Below, one piece after another: positions 23,299 to 60,980 of a stretch of DNA of 64,000 bases; position 1 is the first letter of the stretch; the number at the start of each line of letters is the position of its first letter. The DNA comes from Dictyobacter arantiisoli. Its GTDB lineage: Bacteria > Chloroflexota > Ktedonobacteria > Ktedonobacterales > Ktedonobacteraceae. The DNA lies in contig NZ_BIXY01000007.1 in assembly GCF_008326305.1 (NCBI RefSeq), forward strand, positions 1 to 64,000, written 5' to 3'. The position numbers and the translations under genes were made by a program. The notes under the pieces are model-generated. The model searched no databases and was not told where the DNA came from. It saw only the letters and a list, made by a program, of their open reading frames with translations.

Positions 23299-23743
23299 CG
23301 GACTCCCATCCCCATCAGGTTCTTACTGTTTGACCTGCGGGCAGGCGCATGCGCGCCTGCGCCCTTTTTAGTGTGTGGTGCTGGAAAGGTGCTACGCACC
23401 TTTCCAGCACCACACACTAAAAACTGTTTTGAGCACCGCAGGTGTGAAAGCTCATGCATAGAGATCGTGGAGAGCATGGGAGACTGGTACACTCTTTGAA
23501 TGTGCCAGTCTCCCTGTATCATCGGGATCTTGCTGGCAGGCGCTTACGCGCCTGCGCCCTTTTTAGTGTGTAGTGGAGAAAAGGTTCTTCGAACCTTTTC
23601 TCCACTACACACTAAAAAGATGTTTGAGCACCACAAGTGCAAAAGCTCATACATAGAGATCGTGGAGAGCATGGGAGGCTGACACACTCTTTGATCTTTT
23701 TGTACAAATTATCAAAAAAGGCGCAGGCGCTCAAGCGCCTGCC
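23299..23743. repeat. Fold-back repeat family A, two full copies and one partial
   Basis: The first copy has a 28-bp stem (23365-23392 / 23396-23423, loop TAC). The second has a 28-bp stem with different sequence (23560-23587 / 23591-23618, loop TTC). Both are preceded by GC-rich hairpins. Between them, about 23476-23514, lies another inverted repeat (GGGAGACTGGTACA and its near complement). The 19-bp terminal repeat TGGGAGGCTGACACACTCT is at 23672-23690. A lone GC-rich hairpin follows at 23720-23743. Open frames in this region are translations of the repeat and not genes. Confidence 0.85.
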
Positions 23744-29421: not shown

Positions 29422-29617
29422 TCCTCTGGCATGGGCACAGAAGCGACACCATGATGCATCAAGCAACAGCATCGTGCAAGTACTTTAGTACCAAAACAAG
29501 TGCCCATGCCTCTGAATTGTTGTACCCTAGTTTTGATCAGACCAATAGGCACGATTCCTTGAGCAGTAACACAAGATCGTTGCTTATTGCGTGCTCATTC
29601 AAGAAAGTGGACCGTTC

Positions 29618-32600
29618 ATGCCTGGGAACAGAGCAACCTATAGTGCAGCGATCAACGCAGCAGACCGCCATCGATGGGATAGCCGCTGGTCGGATGCCAT
29701 GCAAGAATATCAAATAGCACTCGACGAGTTCCCAGAAGATGCTACGGCACGTAGTGGTCTAGGGTTTTGCCATATGCAAATGAAGCAATGGCAACAGGCG
29801 TTGCACGAATATGGGCATATTTTGCAGCGTGATCCCAGCAATGTGATTGCACTGAGCAAGATCGCTGAACTCTATGGCATCTTAAACAGACGTGAAGATG
29901 CATACCAGGCCTATTCCCATCTGGCCGACCTTTACTCACAGGCAGGTCAGGGAGCACGAGCAGAAGCTGCCTGGCAAAAAGCGATCCAGTTATCTCCGGG
30001 CAATCCAGAGCCCCATGAGCGGCTAGCAAGCTATTATTTTGAGAAGAAGGACATCTCCCAGATGTTGCAGGAGCGGTTAGCAGCTGCCCAGGGGTATCTT
30101 CTTCGCAACGAACTCGGTCCGGCACGCGTGCATTGTGAAGAGGTTTTGCGTGCCGATGGATCAAACATTCAAGCACAACAATTGCTCTCGTCCATCCTCA
30201 CGCGGGGGAATGTCTCCGCGGAGGGGGCGGGAACAACCAACTCAACAATTCGTTCGGAAACTGGTGAAAGCGCTCCTGTGCATGGCGACGCTGCAATGAA
30301 TCAAGGGTCCATCACAGAACAATCTTTTACTGGATCAGAAACAACGGGAAATACAAGCGGAGGGAATACTGGCATCATGGGTAACATGGGTAGCGCGGGC
30401 AACTTTGGTGGAGTTAATAATCCCGGTTCACCAATGGCAATGTCCAATGGGAACGGGATGAATTCTGCCCCACGCAATAGAATCACTGCGAACCAGGTCA
30501 CAGGGGCATTGCAGCAGGCGCAAACATTTCAAAACCAGGGCCGTTTCAATGATGCTATTGACCTCTGTGAGCAGATCCTGGAAAGTGGTTTTGATCGTCC
30601 GGATGCGCGATATTTTTTGGGCTGGCTTTACCAGGAACAGCAGCGTTGGGATGAGGCGATTCAGCAATTTCAGCATCTTCTCAATGATCCCGATTACGCA
30701 CTTTCTTGCTACTATGCATTAGGTCAATGCTACCGGGCACGCGGCGATCTGCGCACAGCAACGGTCCATTTTGATGAAGCAGTTGACCGCGTCAATCTCG
30801 ATGCATTGACGGCCGAAGAGTCTGACCAGTTGGTTCAACTCTGTCAGGAAGCAGCCGAGGCCCACCGTTTATTAGGTGAGCAAGAGCAGGCTATGACCGT
30901 CTATAACGCCCTGCTAGGCTTTTTACGTAGCCGTGGCTGGAATGACAAAGTAGCGCAGGTTGAATATATGTTACAGCAGGCGCAAGGTGCCCCTGCCCCT
31001 GTGCGTACCTCGACTCCACCACCGGCAGGGGCTACACAAGCTCCTCCGCAACCACAATCCAGCATGCCTTCATCGCCGATGCTGGACGCGCCGACGATGG
31101 AAATTAACGCCAATAGTATTGCGAACGCGGGCCAGAATCCCCCCACCGTCGCGCCAGCCGCACAGGCAAGCTCGGCCGGTGAATTGCCAGAGTGGCTAAC
31201 AGGTATCCTGAATGACTCAGACAAGCCGCAGAGCGCACAAAAAGCGGCGCCACCACAGCCAGCGGCCCAGGCAGCACCAAATACCGATCAGCCGAGAAAT
31301 GACTATCAGCCAGCTACGGCACCACAACAACAGGCTGCGCAGCCTGAAATTCCATCCTGGCTAACCGATGAAGCCAGGCCAAACTCGACGCGTGTCCTAT
31401 CCCAGGAATTAGAATCGTTGACGCCAGCGCCTCAACAGACACCTCCGGTCGCGCCACAGCCACCGGTACAGCAATCACCTGTCGCGCCACCACAACAAGT
31501 ACAGCAGCAGCCGACGCCGCAGGTACAATCTCCTACCCCACAACCACAGGTAGAGATGAGACAATCGCAACCATTGGTGGCTCCAACGCCGCAGTCAGGA
31601 CCATTACAGCAGGCGCCATCGCAGCCATTACCGCCAGTTGTCCCGCCTACGCCTGTACAGGCATCTTATACTCCTGCGCCCCAGCAACAGACAGCTCCAT
31701 CACCCTGGGGTGCATCCGCGTTTGATGAGCCACAATTGATGGTGCCCAGCACGCCCAGTCGTCCCTCTAACCAGGAGCAGAGACCTGCCTTTGAGGATCT
31801 CCTCAATCAAATGGCGGGTACGCAAAATGGAGCAATGGGACAGGTTGCCGATGCGGTCCTGGCAAGTACAGCGTATCTGCCGGATAATATTCGTATGCAG
31901 GTGATGCGCTCGATGCAGGATATTCAGAAATATATCAACCATGGCCTGCTGACCCCGGCCACGGAAGAATGCCTGCGCGTGATCGATATCGCACCTCAAT
32001 ATCTGGATGTGCATCAGGTCCTCTGCGAGATCTATGTTCGCCAGGGTAAGATTGAGCAAGCAATCACCAAATACGGTATTCTTGTGGATACCTATATTGT
32101 GAATGGCCGTATCGATGATGCGATTGCTACCTATCGACGCATTCTGCAATTAGATCCAAATAATATTACCTATCGCACACGCTTAATCACCTTGCTCTCA
32201 ACGCAGGGCAATAAAGAAGATCTATTGCGCGAACGCACGCTGGCTGCCGAGTCTTATCTGCGCCTGGGCTATATGGATCGCGCCATGACCGAATTGGAGC
32301 AGGCGCTTCAGGAGAGTCCAACCAGTGTCCCAACGCGCCTGAACTATGCACTGGCCTTGCAGAAGCTGGGGCGCTCACAACAGGCTGTCGCGGAATATCA
32401 GCGTGTATTGCAAATTGATCCCCGCAATATCACAGCCTTAGTACGCTGGCATATCTCAATGATCACATCCATGGGAACGGCGCGTGCGACCTCGTTGGAG
32501 ACACTCTCTCGCATTCGCTGGCAACTGCGCGGTGAAGGCCAGAAACATGCCCGTGCCGTTGTGCGCGAATATACGCAGAGCGCGGAGATTTATCCCAATA

Positions 32601-33679
32601 ACGCGGATGTGCATTATGCGCTGGGACAGATCTATCAGCAGTGCGGTTACTATGATCGCGCGGTCGAAGAATATTCTCAATCAACCCGCGATAGCCATGT
32701 CGAGGTTTTTGCCCGCGCCAGTGCCGCTCAGGCATTATTGCTCCAGGGCAAACCAGAAGCGGCAATCCAGCAATTGGAGCAGGCGCTACAGATGGTTCGT
32801 CTCGCCCCACTGTCTATTGATCCCGCAACCTGGGCGGCTCGCCCACGCGAGGAAGGTGAAGAACATCGCGCACCTGAGGTTGAAATCTCCATGCAACTGG
32901 CAAAAGCCTATGGGCGTACCGGCCAGCAGGAACAGATGCAGGCGATTCTGCGGCAGATCAAGCGCGGCAAACCGGACCAGGACGAGGTCACATCCAGTAT
33001 CGCGGATATCGCGGTCCGTCCCGGCGATATAGATAGCACATTGCAGGAATATATCGATCTGGTACGCCACTATCGCAATAACCGGCAGATTGACAACGCC
33101 ATCAACGTGCTTAATGAGATGGTACGTCTGGCACCACAGGATACGCGAGCCCACGATGAGCTGGCTGATATCTATGTGAGCCGCGGTCTGCTGGAAGAAG
33201 GTATGGCAGAGTTGCGCTTATTAGCTGATATCTATCTACGGCAGGGCAAACTGGATCAGGCCGGTGAAGCGGTCAGACGAGTCGGTAATATCTACGCGGA
33301 AATGGGCGATATCGAAGAGGCTTTGACCAGCCTGTATCGAGCCGCTGAACTCAATCCTGAGTCGATGGATTTGTTACGCGAGGTGGTCGGCTTCTGCCTC
33401 CAATTGGGGCGCAAGCAGGATGCCGCACGCTATCAGACCATGATCGCGCGTAACTACTTTGAAACCCAACAGGTCAAAGAAGCGGTCGCAGCCCTGCAAC
33501 AGCTGATTACCATTGACCGCAACAACTTTGATGCCTATGACATGCTGGGACAAACCTACCAATCAGTCGGCGAATATGAACAGGCCAGCCGCGTTTATCG
33601 CAACCTGGCTAAAGTGAATGCTGGTAGCTCGGTTGCCCGCGAACGCCTGGCGGCTCTCCAGGAACTCCGCACTCGCTAA
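29618..33679 (+). CDS. Large TPR-repeat protein with Pro/Gln-rich linkers
   Basis: This protein of about 1,353 residues is built of tetratricopeptide blocks: about 1-200, 290-450 and 750-1345. These are separated by a Gly/Asn-rich segment (about 215-290) and by a long Pro/Gln/Ala-rich disordered region (about 460-740). The repeated motif PEWLTGIL / PSWLTDEA within the linker suggests a short linear binding site used twice. There is no signal peptide or TM helix, so it is probably a cytoplasmic scaffold for protein assembly; the partner is unknown. ATG 29618 has an upstream AAGTGGA; a GTG at 29591 is the alternative. It is monocistronic, with a strong 25-bp terminator. Confidence 0.85.
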   Translation: MPGNRATYSAAINAADRHRWDSRWSDAMQEYQIALDEFPEDATARSGLGFCHMQMKQWQQALHEYGHILQRDPSNVIALSKIAELYGILNRREDAYQAYSHLADLYSQAGQGARAEAAWQKAIQLSPGNPEPHERLASYYFEKKDISQMLQERLAAAQGYLLRNELGPARVHCEEVLRADGSNIQAQQLLSSILTRGNVSAEGAGTTNSTIRSETGESAPVHGDAAMNQGSITEQSFTGSETTGNTSGGNTGIMGNMGSAGNFGGVNNPGSPMAMSNGNGMNSAPRNRITANQVTGALQQAQTFQNQGRFNDAIDLCEQILESGFDRPDARYFLGWLYQEQQRWDEAIQQFQHLLNDPDYALSCYYALGQCYRARGDLRTATVHFDEAVDRVNLDALTAEESDQLVQLCQEAAEAHRLLGEQEQAMTVYNALLGFLRSRGWNDKVAQVEYMLQQAQGAPAPVRTSTPPPAGATQAPPQPQSSMPSSPMLDAPTMEINANSIANAGQNPPTVAPAAQASSAGELPEWLTGILNDSDKPQSAQKAAPPQPAAQAAPNTDQPRNDYQPATAPQQQAAQPEIPSWLTDEARPNSTRVLSQELESLTPAPQQTPPVAPQPPVQQSPVAPPQQVQQQPTPQVQSPTPQPQVEMRQSQPLVAPTPQSGPLQQAPSQPLPPVVPPTPVQASYTPAPQQQTAPSPWGASAFDEPQLMVPSTPSRPSNQEQRPAFEDLLNQMAGTQNGAMGQVADAVLASTAYLPDNIRMQVMRSMQDIQKYINHGLLTPATEECLRVIDIAPQYLDVHQVLCEIYVRQGKIEQAITKYGILVDTYIVNGRIDDAIATYRRILQLDPNNITYRTRLITLLSTQGNKEDLLRERTLAAESYLRLGYMDRAMTELEQALQESPTSVPTRLNYALALQKLGRSQQAVAEYQRVLQIDPRNITALVRWHISMITSMGTARATSLETLSRIRWQLRGEGQKHARAVVREYTQSAEIYPNNADVHYALGQIYQQCGYYDRAVEEYSQSTRDSHVEVFARASAAQALLLQGKPEAAIQQLEQALQMVRLAPLSIDPATWAARPREEGEEHRAPEVEISMQLAKAYGRTGQQEQMQAILRQIKRGKPDQDEVTSSIADIAVRPGDIDSTLQEYIDLVRHYRNNRQIDNAINVLNEMVRLAPQDTRAHDELADIYVSRGLLEEGMAELRLLADIYLRQGKLDQAGEAVRRVGNIYAEMGDIEEALTSLYRAAELNPESMDLLREVVGFCLQLGRKQDAARYQTMIARNYFETQQVKEAVAALQQLITIDRNNFDAYDMLGQTYQSVGEYEQASRVYRNLAKVNAGSSVARERLAALQELRTR

Positions 33680-33699
33680 GTTTATATGTTTGGTTAAAA

Positions 33700-33757
33700 G
33701 CCCAAAGAAAAGAGATAGCTCATCCAATAGTAGATGAGCTATCTCTTTTCTTTGGGC
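33700..33757 (+). terminator. 25-bp perfect terminator of the TPR gene
   Basis: Arms 33700-33724 and 33733-33757 are perfectly complementary with an 8-nt loop. Confidence 0.9.
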
Positions 33758-33779
33758 CATGGTCTTTCTATGACTGTTC

Positions 33780-34241
33780 GCGCCGCTGGCGCTCAAAATC
33801 TCTTTATAAGAAGGTGCAGAATTTGGTGCTAGCACCAAATTCTGCACCTTCTTATAAAGAGATTTTGGGTGCTATGGCACCAAATCTTTGCACCCTCTTA
33901 TAAAGAGATTTTGGGTGCTATGGCACCAAATCTTTGCACTCCCTTATAAAGAGATTTTGGGTGCTATGGCACCAAATCTTTGCACTCCCTTATAAAGAGA
34001 TTTTGGGTGCTATGGCACCAAATCTTTGCACTCCCTTATAAAGAGATTTTGGGTGCTATGGCACCAAATCTTTGCACTCCCTTATAAAGAGATTTTGGGT
34101 GCTATGGCACCAAATCTTTGCACTCCCTTATAAAGAGATTTTGGGTGCTATGGCACCAAATCTTTGCACTCCCTTATAAAGAGATTTTGGGTGCTATGGC
34201 ACCAAATCTTTGCACTCCCTTATAAAGAGATTTTGGGTGCT
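33780..34241. repeat. 72-bp perfect palindrome followed by 46-bp tandem array
   Basis: A short hairpin GCGCC-GCT-GGCGC (33780-33792) is followed by a perfect loop-less palindrome (arms 33795-33830 and 33831-33866). From 33855 a 46-bp unit repeats: eight full units start at 33855, 33901, 33947, 33993, 34039, 34085, 34131 and 34177, with a partial unit at 34223-34241. Units are identical except for a small change in the first. Each unit is a slightly altered copy of the palindrome's right arm plus the spacer GGGTGCTATG, so the array grew by amplifying one arm. It lies between convergent genes and encodes nothing. Confidence 0.9.
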
Positions 34242-34264
34242 GACATACCTACTCGCCACAATGT

Positions 34265-35404
34265 TTATTTGCTGGCAGGCTCTAGCGGGGTCTGAGACGA
34301 CTGAGAGGCGGGTCTTTCTTTGTTGGTGCTTTGTGACTGCTGAACAGGTGGTTGCGCGGGCTGATAGAGCTCTCGGCGCGCGTCACGCTTGCTCTTGAGT
34401 TCGAGTAACAGGCGATATGCTTGATAAACGAATGGGCGATAAGCGAGATCATGGGTGTCCAACGAGAGCATGGGATATCCTCCGAAGCCGCGCTTGAAGA
34501 GATAGACACCCCACATTTCCTGGCCCTCGGCGAGGATCTCAGGAATACCCCGAAAGTTATAATACTGGCAGCCATGCGCTTTGGCCCATTGTATGCCATT
34601 CCATTGCAATAAATGATTGGGCATCTTCTCACGATGCTCATTTGAGGAGGCACCATACATATAATAGGCCCAGGGGCCAGCGCGGAGCATGATAATACCA
34701 GAGATTGCCTGACCCTCATATTCCGCCAGGAAGAGGGCCGCTCGCTCCTGCTCACCCAGAATGCGCAGGATGTCAGCGTACAAGGATCTATCATTGATGA
34801 AGAATCTATCACGCTCGCTGGTAGTCTCATAGAGGCGATAAAAGGCATCAATATCGGCCTGGGTGCTCCCCTGGCGGACAGTTACGCCTTTGCGGCCTGC
34901 CAGACGGATATTATAGCGCCATTTCTCCTTCATTCCTGCCAGCAAGCTTTTCTCGTCAGGACGAATGTCCAGTACCCATTCGTTGCGGATATGAACATGA
35001 TGAGGATTGATCTGGAAGCCGCGCCGTTTGAGCTCTGATAACCAGAGATGGTTATCAGCTAAAACACTCGGCTCGATCTTCAACATAAAGGCATGCCGCC
35101 TGCGCGCCTCGACTTTGACATAATTGAGCAATACGGTCAGGGCTGGAGAGGTGGGATCATCGATCACTGGACCGCGAGGAGCATAGAAATAGAGTTGCTT
35201 GAGCACAGGAGCGCGCGACACAATCAATAATATCGCCGCGCAAAGCTGATCAGCCTCGTTCACCACGCCAATACGCAACGTCTCTTCAGCTCCCAGATAC
35301 GAGCCAAACTCTGCCCATTCATAGGTCTGTGTGACGGTACAACAAACGGATGATTGTACAAAATCATTCCATTGTTGACGATCTTTAATAATGCGAGCTT
35401 CCAT
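34265..35404 (-). CDS. FemAB-family peptidoglycan bridge aminoacyltransferase, copy 1
   Basis: This 379-residue FemX/FemA-type enzyme uses aminoacyl-tRNA to add amino acids to the lipid II stem peptide. It has the two tandem GNAT-like halves of the family. Key segments are TQTYEWAEFGSYLGAEE, LYFYAPRGPVIDD, LKIEPSVLADN, MKEKWRYNIRLAGRKGVTV and AYYMYGASSNEHREKMPNHLLQWNGIQWAKAHGCQYYNFRGIP. The ATG at 35404 follows AAGAGG at 4 nt. The C-terminus is low-complexity (Gln/Ser/Pro). It sits beside a paralogue, suggesting two-step building of the crossbridge. Confidence 0.9.
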   Translation of the reverse strand: MEARIIKDRQQWNDFVQSSVCCTVTQTYEWAEFGSYLGAEETLRIGVVNEADQLCAAILLIVSRAPVLKQLYFYAPRGPVIDDPTSPALTVLLNYVKVEARRRHAFMLKIEPSVLADNHLWLSELKRRGFQINPHHVHIRNEWVLDIRPDEKSLLAGMKEKWRYNIRLAGRKGVTVRQGSTQADIDAFYRLYETTSERDRFFINDRSLYADILRILGEQERAALFLAEYEGQAISGIIMLRAGPWAYYMYGASSNEHREKMPNHLLQWNGIQWAKAHGCQYYNFRGIPEILAEGQEMWGVYLFKRGFGGYPMLSLDTHDLAYRPFVYQAYRLLLELKSKRDARRELYQPAQPPVQQSQSTNKERPASQSSQTPLEPASK

Positions 35405-35477
35405 AGCACCTCTTCCCAGTAGCAATGCTGAAACGATCTACAGACTATTTATCCATTTCTCAATGCTTCTATGCTGC

Positions 35478-36599
35478 TTAATCGGCATCAGACACCGCTT
35501 CGGGTATACTGGCTAACACTTGCCGCTCGCCATCCACATACTGGCGCTCTTTATGCCGTTGCTGCTTTCCAATCTCTACCAACTTGCGCCATGGCTTATA
35601 GATCAAGGGTTGATAAATATAATCTTGTGTGGGCATCGTCAGACGCGAGAAGCCACCAAAGCTTTTTTTATATTCATAGACATCCCACAAATCCTCGCCG
35701 GGGACCAGCACATCGGGGATCGAGCGAAAATCAAAGAAGCGACAACCCTGTTCCTGTGCCCATTGCAAAGCATGGTATTGCAAAAGATAGGTAGCTGGCT
35801 GTAACCAATCCTCACCCACATGACCATTAAACATATCCCAGCACCAATTACCAAAGCGAAGCAACAACTTGGCTGCAACCGCCTTCCCATCCTGTAGCGC
35901 TAGCAGAATAGTCGCACCATGCTGACGAGAAAAGGCTTGCAAGAGGTTCCGATGATAATCCTTGCTATGCACAAACACGTCATTCAGTTCTGCAGAAGAT
36001 TTCAACAGTTCATAATAGCGATGGAAATCCTGTTCGCCACATGCCTCGCGAATCGTCACGCCCTGCCGTTCAGCCTGATAAATCCGTTGCCGGCAAGCGG
36101 GTGTAAAAGCGTGTAAGAGTGCATCCCGATCTGGTTGCAGATCCAACACCCAGGAACGACGCCCATGCACCGAATTGGGATTACTCTGAAAGCCAGCTTT
36201 ATGATAGACAGCGAGCCAGGTATCCAGGTTAGGATCATCATCGGCAACATTGGGTTCCACGCGTAACACAACGGCGCGCTCCTGCTGAGCGACCCCTTCA
36301 ACCTGTTGAAGCAACTGTGTCAATACAGAGACATCCAGATGCTCCAACACTGGTCCACGAGCGCTATACAACCAGGTAGGAAGTAATTTGGGCAACGGCA
36401 AAGGCACAGCAGCAACTGTCAGGGATAGCGCCCCGATCAGGCGTTCATCATCCACCACACCCAGGCGATAGATTTGATCCCCCTGCTCGCGGTTCAGTTC
36501 TCCCCATTCATAGGACTGTAAAAAGTGCCCATGCGGTTGGCGCAGCAGAAACGCATTCCACTGCTCCCGATCATGAATTTCCTGGATCTTGATACTCAT
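35478..36599 (-). CDS. FemAB-family peptidoglycan bridge aminoacyltransferase, copy 2
   Basis: This 373-residue paralogue of the downstream gene shares the same blocks: LQSYEWGELNREQGDQI, WLYSARGPVLEHL, LRVEPNVADDDPNLDTW, FTPACRQRIYQAERQGVTI and LLQYHALQWAQEQGCRFFDFRSIPD. It probably adds a different residue or position of the peptidoglycan crossbridge. It starts 6 bp after the GNAT gene (same strand), so the three genes are likely one transcript. No seryl/alanyl-tRNA synthetase-like partner is nearby. Confidence 0.9.
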   Translation of the reverse strand: MSIKIQEIHDREQWNAFLLRQPHGHFLQSYEWGELNREQGDQIYRLGVVDDERLIGALSLTVAAVPLPLPKLLPTWLYSARGPVLEHLDVSVLTQLLQQVEGVAQQERAVVLRVEPNVADDDPNLDTWLAVYHKAGFQSNPNSVHGRRSWVLDLQPDRDALLHAFTPACRQRIYQAERQGVTIREACGEQDFHRYYELLKSSAELNDVFVHSKDYHRNLLQAFSRQHGATILLALQDGKAVAAKLLLRFGNWCWDMFNGHVGEDWLQPATYLLQYHALQWAQEQGCRFFDFRSIPDVLVPGEDLWDVYEYKKSFGGFSRLTMPTQDYIYQPLIYKPWRKLVEIGKQQRHKERQYVDGERQVLASIPEAVSDAD

Positions 36600-59267: not shown

Positions 59268-60782
59268 ATGATTGCACGCATGAAACGACAAGGATGGCCG
59301 CTAGGCGTTCGGCTCCAACTGATGCTCTGGTATACATGCGTCTTCGCCGTTCTCCTCTTTATCTCAGGCGTTATTCTTTATAAACATTTGCAAACGTCGC
59401 TGGCAGGCAGCCTGGATACTGCATTGCAAAGCAGGGCCGAGCAGATTGCCGGTGAAATCTACCTCGACCATGGAACGATCCAGATGCATGAGTCGGTAGG
59501 CGAACTGCCAGGCTTTGAGCATAGTGTCAACAATCATCCTCTCTCCTATAGTGATGTCAATGATGATATTCTGGTACGTATTCTGGACGCGCAGGGCAAA
59601 CCATTTCGTATGACGACCGCCTTTCGTTCTATTCACGTACCTGAGAGCAGCATCACACAACCGCTCCAGGGCAATCCCTGGCAGGATACCATCGAAACGA
59701 TAGATGGCAAGCAAGATGCACGTATCTATAGCCGCTCGGTCACGAAAGATGGGAAATTAATTGCCGTTATCCAGGTGGGACAATTTATGGGGGATTTGCA
59801 AAATACCCTCCATCATGTGGCAAAAGAATTTATTTTTCTGGGTGTCGTGGTGCTCTTATTCAGTGCTCTGGGGAGTTACTGGCTGGCGGCACTGGCCTTC
59901 GCGCCCATCCATAATCTTATTCGGACAGCACGCTCGATCAAAGAGGGAGACCTGAAGCAGCGCGTGCCCGTACCCGCCGCACGCGATGAGGTCCGTTTCC
60001 TGGCCCTTACACTCAACGAGATGATTGCCAGTCTGGATCTGGTATTCGAGCGTCAGCGACGCTTTGTAGCTGATGCCTCGCATGAACTACGCACACCGGT
60101 AGCGGTAATCAGAAGCACAACCGATGTAGCTCTCCTGCATGGGAACGCACAAGAAGACTATATTGCCGTGATTCGCAATGTGAACCTTGAGGCCGAGCGC
60201 CTGGGACGGCTCATCAACGATTTGCTGGCCCTGGCACGCGGGGATGAGGGACAAACCAAACTGGAACACGAAGCTGTCCGCCTGGATCAGCTGGCGGATG
60301 TTGTAACGGCTCATGCGGAAACTCTGGCGGAAGAACGCCAGGTTACATTACAGTGTACAGACCTGCAAGCAACGACCGTGGAAGGCGATGAAACACGCCT
60401 GATCCAAATGATTATGAATCTAATCGACAATGCCATTATTTATACCAATGCTGGCGGCTCTATCAGCGTATCGGTCACTCATAATGCCCAACAGGCCATC
60501 CTGACCATTCGGGATACTGGCATTGGTATCGCCCCTGAACATCTCTCGCATATATTTGAACGCTTTTATCGCATCGATCCGGCACGCATCCATGATGGTG
60601 GCGGCAGTAGCGGCCTGGGACTGGCTATCGTACAATGGACCATTCAGGCACATCGAGGGACCATCAATGTTGACAGCCAACTCGGACAGGGAAGTACCTT
60701 CACAATCACCTTACCACTGGCTCCAGAACCAAATAAACAGTTGCTCAAAATCTCCAGAGACAACCACAAACAAAGTGTTTGA
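59268..60782 (+). CDS. Orphan HAMP-type sensor histidine kinase
   Basis: This 504-residue membrane kinase has an N-terminal TM, an extracytoplasmic sensor domain (about 45-185), a second TM, and HAMP at about 205-260 (PIHNLIRTARSIKEGDLKQRVPV). HisKA VADASHELRTPVAVIRSTTD has phospho-His272. The HATPase domain has NLIDNAIIYTNAG, DTGIGIAPEHL and GLGLAIVQW. No response regulator is adjacent, so its partner is unknown. The last codons (AGT GTT TGA) lie within the end motif of a family A repeat at 60773, so the repeat supplies the stop codon. Confidence 0.94.
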   Translation: MIARMKRQGWPLGVRLQLMLWYTCVFAVLLFISGVILYKHLQTSLAGSLDTALQSRAEQIAGEIYLDHGTIQMHESVGELPGFEHSVNNHPLSYSDVNDDILVRILDAQGKPFRMTTAFRSIHVPESSITQPLQGNPWQDTIETIDGKQDARIYSRSVTKDGKLIAVIQVGQFMGDLQNTLHHVAKEFIFLGVVVLLFSALGSYWLAALAFAPIHNLIRTARSIKEGDLKQRVPVPAARDEVRFLALTLNEMIASLDLVFERQRRFVADASHELRTPVAVIRSTTDVALLHGNAQEDYIAVIRNVNLEAERLGRLINDLLALARGDEGQTKLEHEAVRLDQLADVVTAHAETLAEERQVTLQCTDLQATTVEGDETRLIQMIMNLIDNAIIYTNAGGSISVSVTHNAQQAILTIRDTGIGIAPEHLSHIFERFYRIDPARIHDGGGSSGLGLAIVQWTIQAHRGTINVDSQLGQGSTFTITLPLAPEPNKQLLKISRDNHKQSV

Positions 60783-60980
60783 TTCCCATGCTCTCCACCA
60801 TCTCTGTGCATGAGTTTTCGCACCTGCGGTGCTCAAAACAGTTTTTAGTGTGTGGTGCAGGAAAGGTGCACAGCACCTTTCCTGCACCACACACTAAAAA
60901 GGGCGCAGGCGCGCACGCGCCTGCCAGCCAGGGAGCAGCAAGATCCCGCTGGTATTGGGGGGCTGACACTCTCAAAGAGA
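60773..60980. repeat. Fold-back repeat family A, copy D
   Basis: The motif AGTGTTTGATTCCCATG (the complement of the 104-120 end) is followed by a 28-bp perfect stem with loop ACA (60842-60869 / 60873-60900), a GC-rich hairpin, and the AGCCAGGGAGCAGCAAGATCCCGCTGGTA end also seen at about 488-515. It runs in the same orientation as the 0.3-0.5 kb copies. Confidence 0.9.

Follow-up and report, generated by a model that had tools for sequence, protein, structure and literature searches.

Intergenic palindromes of bacteria have been described as REP elements, in which a conserved tetranucleotide, GTAG in most cases, precedes a palindrome of 20-50 nt (PMC8266576). Template switching between inverted repeats leaves compensated arm changes and inverted loops as its signatures and can create a perfect stem in one event (PMC8794818), and the same signatures are described for the arms and loops of quasipalindromes in PMC8604942. 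Searches of the open-access literature gave no direct precedent for the palindromes of Ktedonobacter or for tandem duplication seeded by a palindrome. The locus described here, at 33780-34241 of the window (the whole 64,000-nt stretch of Dictyobacter arantiisoli DNA that was analysed), consists of a GC hairpin, a loop-less perfect palindrome and eight 46-bp units, in this order. The unit number is read from a draft assembly of 256 contigs (genome of 7.2 Mb).

Anatomy of the palindrome and its array

The features of the locus and its surroundings are:

29591-33679, + strand: gene for a TPR-repeat protein, left neighbour, converging on the array
33700-33757, no strand: separate perfect palindrome of 25+25 bp with an 8-nt loop and a C/T-rich outer stem
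33780-33792, no strand: short GC-rich hairpin GCGCCGCTGGCGC, a motif that accompanies palindromic elements of Dictyobacter
33789-33872, no strand: extended inverted repeat, 42+42 bp at 95% complementarity
33794-33867, no strand: loop-less perfect palindrome L1.R1, 37+37 bp (74 bp, loop 0)
33825-33830, + strand: GGTGCT, microhomology copy 1, at the palindrome centre
33868-33873, + strand: GGTGCT, microhomology copy 2, just past the right arm and 43 bp downstream of copy 1
33877-33922, + strand: array unit 1, a variant whose sequence stands between that of the palindrome arm and that of units 2-7
33923-34198, + strand: array units 2-7, six identical 46-bp copies
34199-34241, + strand: array unit 8, 43 of 46 bp, without the final ATG, so that the array ends in GGGTGCT
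34265-35425, - strand: gene for a FemAB-family protein, right neighbour, converging on the array

The sequence-only reading that preceded this analysis had correctly placed the locus between convergent genes and had recognized a loop-less perfect palindrome, but its length of 36+36 bp (72 bp) has to be corrected to 37+37 bp. Loop-less arms of at least 37 bp are expected about 3e-18 times by chance in 64 kb. The outer arms of the palindrome are AAAATCTC/GAGATTTT, and the right end of the extended inverted repeat, GAGATTTTGGGTGC, is the left flank GCGCTCAAAATCTC inverted with two mismatches.

The array occupies 33877-34241, with unit starts at 33877, 33923 and so on to 34199, and TRF reported a period of 46 bp with 9.3 copies and 97% match over 33818-34241. 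Each unit is the right arm, with one inserted base and a few substitutions, followed by GGGTGCTATG. TRF and the unit comparison thereby bear out the eight units of altered right arm plus GGGTGCTATG proposed earlier, and the relation between arm and unit supports the idea that the right arm was amplified into the array. Unit 1 differs from units 2-7 in one short stretch (GCACCCTC versus GCACTCCC). The motif GGTGCT occurs at 33825, at 33868 and then every 46 bp up to 34236, closing every array unit. Besides its own right arm, the left arm pairs with each of the eight units (83-90% over 30 nt), which gives the nine partner arms counted before.

The separate palindrome at 33700-33757 folds at -43.6 kcal/mol (z -12.3) and is probably the bidirectional terminator of the convergent TPR/FemAB pair. 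It was missed by a simple terminator scan, probably because its T-tract lies inside the stem, and no intrinsic terminator (GC-rich stem plus U-tract) was called in 33600-34320. To the right, at 34265-36599 of the window, two FemAB-family genes lie side by side on one strand.

The 46-bp unit has no second place in the 7.2-Mb genome, where its core motif was found at this locus only, plus one site with 2 mismatches; a genome-wide protein-binding array was rejected on this ground. The search for the unit in relatives that had been recommended with the sequence-only reading gave none in the 40 searched, the sole match being one D. kobayashii palindrome with 79% identity over 61 bp. Absence elsewhere in the genome and in the 40 relatives argues against a widely used protein-binding site. 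A coding repeat was also rejected, since a 46-bp period is not divisible by 3 and the array is spanned by no ORF of at least 90 aa, as was a phage or plasmid origin, since the plasmids and phages searched showed no match to the locus.

Three relatives lack the array at the orthologous junction. In D. kobayashii this gap holds a short, simple terminator-like hairpin, in D. aurantiacus a perfect 42+1+42 palindrome with a GC hairpin, and in D. vulcani a GC hairpin together with a 27+4+27 palindrome and another palindrome of terminator-like form. The palindrome arms at this junction are unrelated in sequence between species. When conserved gene pairs were compared more widely, certain gaps held a palindrome in two species, and in example gaps the arms looked unrelated by eye. 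The unrelated arms at shared gaps imply that palindrome sites recur while their sequences turn over. The six identical units and the absence of the array from the junction in the three relatives fit the recent birth that had been offered as one explanation.

Palindromes and family A in Dictyobacter

A census of 2.86 Mb from four Dictyobacter species (part of each genome, with heuristic gene calls) counted perfect palindromes whose arms reach 20 bp or more and whose loops do not exceed 14. Of the 330 palindromes found, D. arantiisoli (this genome) contributed 61 from 859 kb, D. kobayashii 92 and D. aurantiacus 159 from 800 kb each, and D. vulcani 18 from 400 kb; the density is roughly 5-20 per 100 kb. 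One shuffled 320-kb contig contained no perfect palindrome with arms of 12 or more. With such a density, the argument that palindrome instability makes survival at this locus special does not hold. Many palindromes were also seen in Ktedonobacter/Ktedonospora; small samples of Thermogemmatispora and three other genera had no such palindromes. Loss of sbcCD was rejected as the cause of the abundance, since a pair of SbcD-like and SbcC-like genes is present on contig C2, with the SbcD-like protein below the curated TIGR00619 cut-off. The presence of an SbcCD-like gene pair thus does not keep long perfect palindromes from being abundant in a bacterial genome.

Dictyobacter palindromes sit near gene 3' ends, and in each of the four species their number per intergenic kb peaked in convergent gaps and was smallest in divergent ones. 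In this genome 36 of the 61 palindromes have a GC hairpin within 40 bp, compared with 6.4% of intergenic sites taken at random; across the four species the range is 22-59% versus 4-10%. A general role of the palindromes as terminators was rejected: few end in T-runs (a terminator-like T-run ends 1 of the 61 in this genome), many end in A-runs, and the scan was negative at the locus.

A dispersed element of roughly 200 bp, here called family A, has terminal inverted repeats near ACAAAGTGTTTGATTCCCA...TGGGAATCAAACACTTTGT, which make it MITE-like. It occurs in the window at 60747-60952, 103-514 and 23336-23694 and at no fewer than 40 distinct places in this genome (238 first-look candidates, 40 scored), and was also found in tandem pairs. 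The focal left flank ATGACTGTTCGCGCCGCTGGCGCTCAAAA aligns with the left half of family A; it scores 32 against the left consensus, a value also reached by 16 out of 3000 intergenic stretches drawn at random, among which real copies are probably included. The order of the left half, a hairpin flank followed by a palindrome, is found at the locus, and the right GC hairpin and right terminal inverted repeat are missing, with the array and unique sequence in their place. A non-orthologous D. kobayashii element (L048) has the hairpin and core palindrome in common with the focal locus. The GC hairpin therefore does link the locus to family A, as had been proposed, and the focal palindrome is a degenerate member of a dispersed Dictyobacter class that combines a GC hairpin with a long perfect palindrome. 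The palindrome of L048 is shorter and ends before the hairpin-adjacent flank, whereas the focal one reaches about nine bases further, imperfectly into the hairpin stem. The best reading of its right side is therefore that the left flank was copied there in inverted form.

Arm changes relative to the consensus, scored in 30 family-A copies, were compensated in the other arm in 27 cases and one-sided in 9. If arms changed independently, about 0.45 compensated pairs would be expected; the 27 are inflated by shared descent, yet they fall at no fewer than eight different positions. These counts describe family A; the focal locus is single-copy. Family-A copies L018-L047 carry either ATA or TAT as loop with flanks and arms unchanged, as if flipped, and a TTC/GAA loop inversion with unchanged flanks was likewise seen. 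Arms that stay perfect despite sequence drift suggest, from such sequence comparisons, homogenisation by template switching.

Array edges and the proposed origin of the focal array

The edges of 72 intergenic tandem arrays (period 20-250, 144 edges) were compared with a null in which arrays were slid by 20-300 bp in 2000 trials. Thirteen of the 144 edges lay within 6 bp of a palindrome centre; the null had a mean of 1.6 and a maximum of 8, and none of the 2000 trials reached 13. Within 13 bp there were 20 edges, from 16 arrays, versus 3.5 expected. The focal array counts among these 20 but not among the 13, since its start as called by TRF falls 12.5 bp within the left arm, where the inner bases resemble the unit junction. 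The recurrence of intergenic array edges at palindrome centres is the general and new point of this analysis. The general form of such an array is L1(R1 ... L2)n R2, in which the right cap R2 is optional and the focal locus is one-sided.

More than a dozen further sites in related species show a comparable layout. D. kobayashii has nine identical 48-bp units at G004:C1 3280080-3280531 (L154) with an edge 0.5 bp from the centre; the last array copy doubles as the left arm of a perfect 23+23 palindrome, and by eye no clear microhomology was found at this junction. In D. aurantiacus, two arrays (G003:C1 3042959-3043385, L169, and 2849330-2849674, L160; 125 bp x 3.1 and 91 bp x 3.2) have perfect-palindrome caps at both ends. 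Within the genome studied here, a 25 bp x 8.2 array at G000:C1 175049-175253 (L128) touches a 29+3+29 palindrome, which it meets at the outer edge and not at the centre.

We propose, with a probability of roughly 0.6, that the locus is a mutational scar, formed by a tandem duplication that broke at the palindrome centre and by subsequent expansion, with no function indicated. Support comes from the edge excess, the arrays of the same layout, the GGTGCT spacing, the intermediate unit 1, the match to a dispersed element, the compensated changes and inverted loops of family A, the presence of the SbcD-like/SbcC-like pair and the absence of the unit elsewhere. The D. kobayashii 48-bp array, with no clear microhomology by eye, and the SbcD-like score below the cut-off count against it. 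An ordinary element related to family A, with a GC hairpin and a long palindrome, would have been present between the convergent genes. Template switching within the palindrome would then keep the arms perfect and lengthen the right arm by copying the left flank (GCGCTCAAAATCTC to GAGATTTTGGGTGC), which would place the second GGTGCT 43 bp from the central one. A tandem duplication could next join the two GGTGCT sites with its breakpoint at the palindrome centre, either through polymerase slippage at the hairpin loop or through a hairpin-tip break (SbcCD/Mre11-Rad50 type) with microhomology repair. The repeated segment from the centre to the right flank would be 43 bp, which with TG at the junction and one arm base makes 46 bp. 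Slippage or unequal recombination may finally have expanded the units to eight and homogenised them. The anatomy, the sequence relations, the recurrence of edges at centres and the covariation of family-A arms are observations; we infer both the order of these steps and the enzyme.

The order could also be reversed: the gap would first have contained a 46-bp minisatellite, whose terminal unit on the left was then copied in inverted form by a template switch, which makes the palindrome a cap. The edge-at-centre statistic fits both orders alike and gives no order, since an array that came first predicts the same geometry; the caps at both ends of several D. aurantiacus arrays lend themselves naturally to a reading as inverted terminal units, and perfect stems can be made by template switching in one event (PMC8794818). 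We still regard this order as unlikely. The focal palindrome and left flank match stand-alone dispersed elements that have no array, stand-alone palindromes (330 with arms of at least 20) are far more numerous than the arrays that have an edge no more than 13 bp from a centre (16), and units 2-7 differ from the palindrome arms while the two arms agree with each other. It is very improbable that the unit number, or the array itself, was made by short-read assembly of a smaller repeat. With 256 contigs and an array of over 360 bp that may exceed the read length this has to be considered, but the distinct units 1 and 8 and the unique sequence on either side show that there must be some array, and equivalent structures are present in near-complete two-contig assemblies of relatives.

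The sequence-only reading had also suggested a function in protein binding, nucleoid organisation or a structured RNA. A selected role, be it as structured RNA in the FemAB 3' UTR, as a transcription barrier between the convergent genes or as a protein-binding cluster, seems improbable to us. The + strand does fold better than shuffled sequence (z -2.9 for one unit, z -4.2 for two), and the position of palindromes close to the 3' ends of genes, together with their greater density in convergent gaps, would suit such a role. Structure in the unit follows, however, from its palindromic origin, and the - strand, on the side where FemAB transcription would enter, folds unremarkably (z -1.3). Neither the rest of the genome nor the relatives searched contain the unit, the orthologous junction of D. 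kobayashii holds just a simple terminator-like hairpin, no terminator or promoter motif was found at the locus, no Rfam family reached its gathering score within the window, and only one in 61 palindromes of this genome ends in a terminator-like T-run.

The beginnings of arrays are seldom visible, and here the seed (palindrome), the breakpoint (its centre) and the product (a one-arm array) lie side by side. With more than a dozen comparable cases in the genus, some capped at both ends, breakage at palindrome centres becomes testable as a source of arrays. Tentatively, and at somewhat less than even odds, the centres of long perfect Dictyobacter palindromes may be active breakpoints that repeatedly found arrays of the form L1(R1..L2)n R2. 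If true, breakage or switching at palindrome tips would be a general route to bacterial minisatellites.

Comparison with known systems

REP/BIME systems (TnpA_REP/RAYT) resemble the Dictyobacter palindromes in that they are intergenic palindromes near gene ends, are high-copy and at times form tandem clusters (PMC8266576, PMC3733652). They differ in that Dictyobacter arms are 20-48 bp long, perfect and very diverse in sequence, and in that array edges here lie at palindrome centres and not between whole REP units. Read directly, the sequence between 33758 and 34242 contains no GTAG or CTAC tag. A Y1 transposase (PF01797) has one match in this genome, a 146-aa open frame on another contig. The palindrome class is abundant in Dictyobacter, and the focal arm and unit are found at a single locus. 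The units are joined head to tail without spacers, unlike a CRISPR array.

Among MITE-like repeats, the related family A is alike in its size of roughly 200 bp, its dispersal and its terminal inverted repeats, whereas the focal locus retains the left half only, with the array replacing the right half. Quasipalindrome template-switch mutation shares the compensated arm changes and inverted loops (PMC8794818, PMC8604942); those reports treat stems and spacers, and among the reports read arrays edged at a palindrome centre are not described. Intergenic minisatellites (VNTR loci) are similar in having mostly identical tandem units, here of 46 bp, in a non-coding gap, and the focal array differs from these in its anchor and its source, both of which are one arm of a perfect palindrome.
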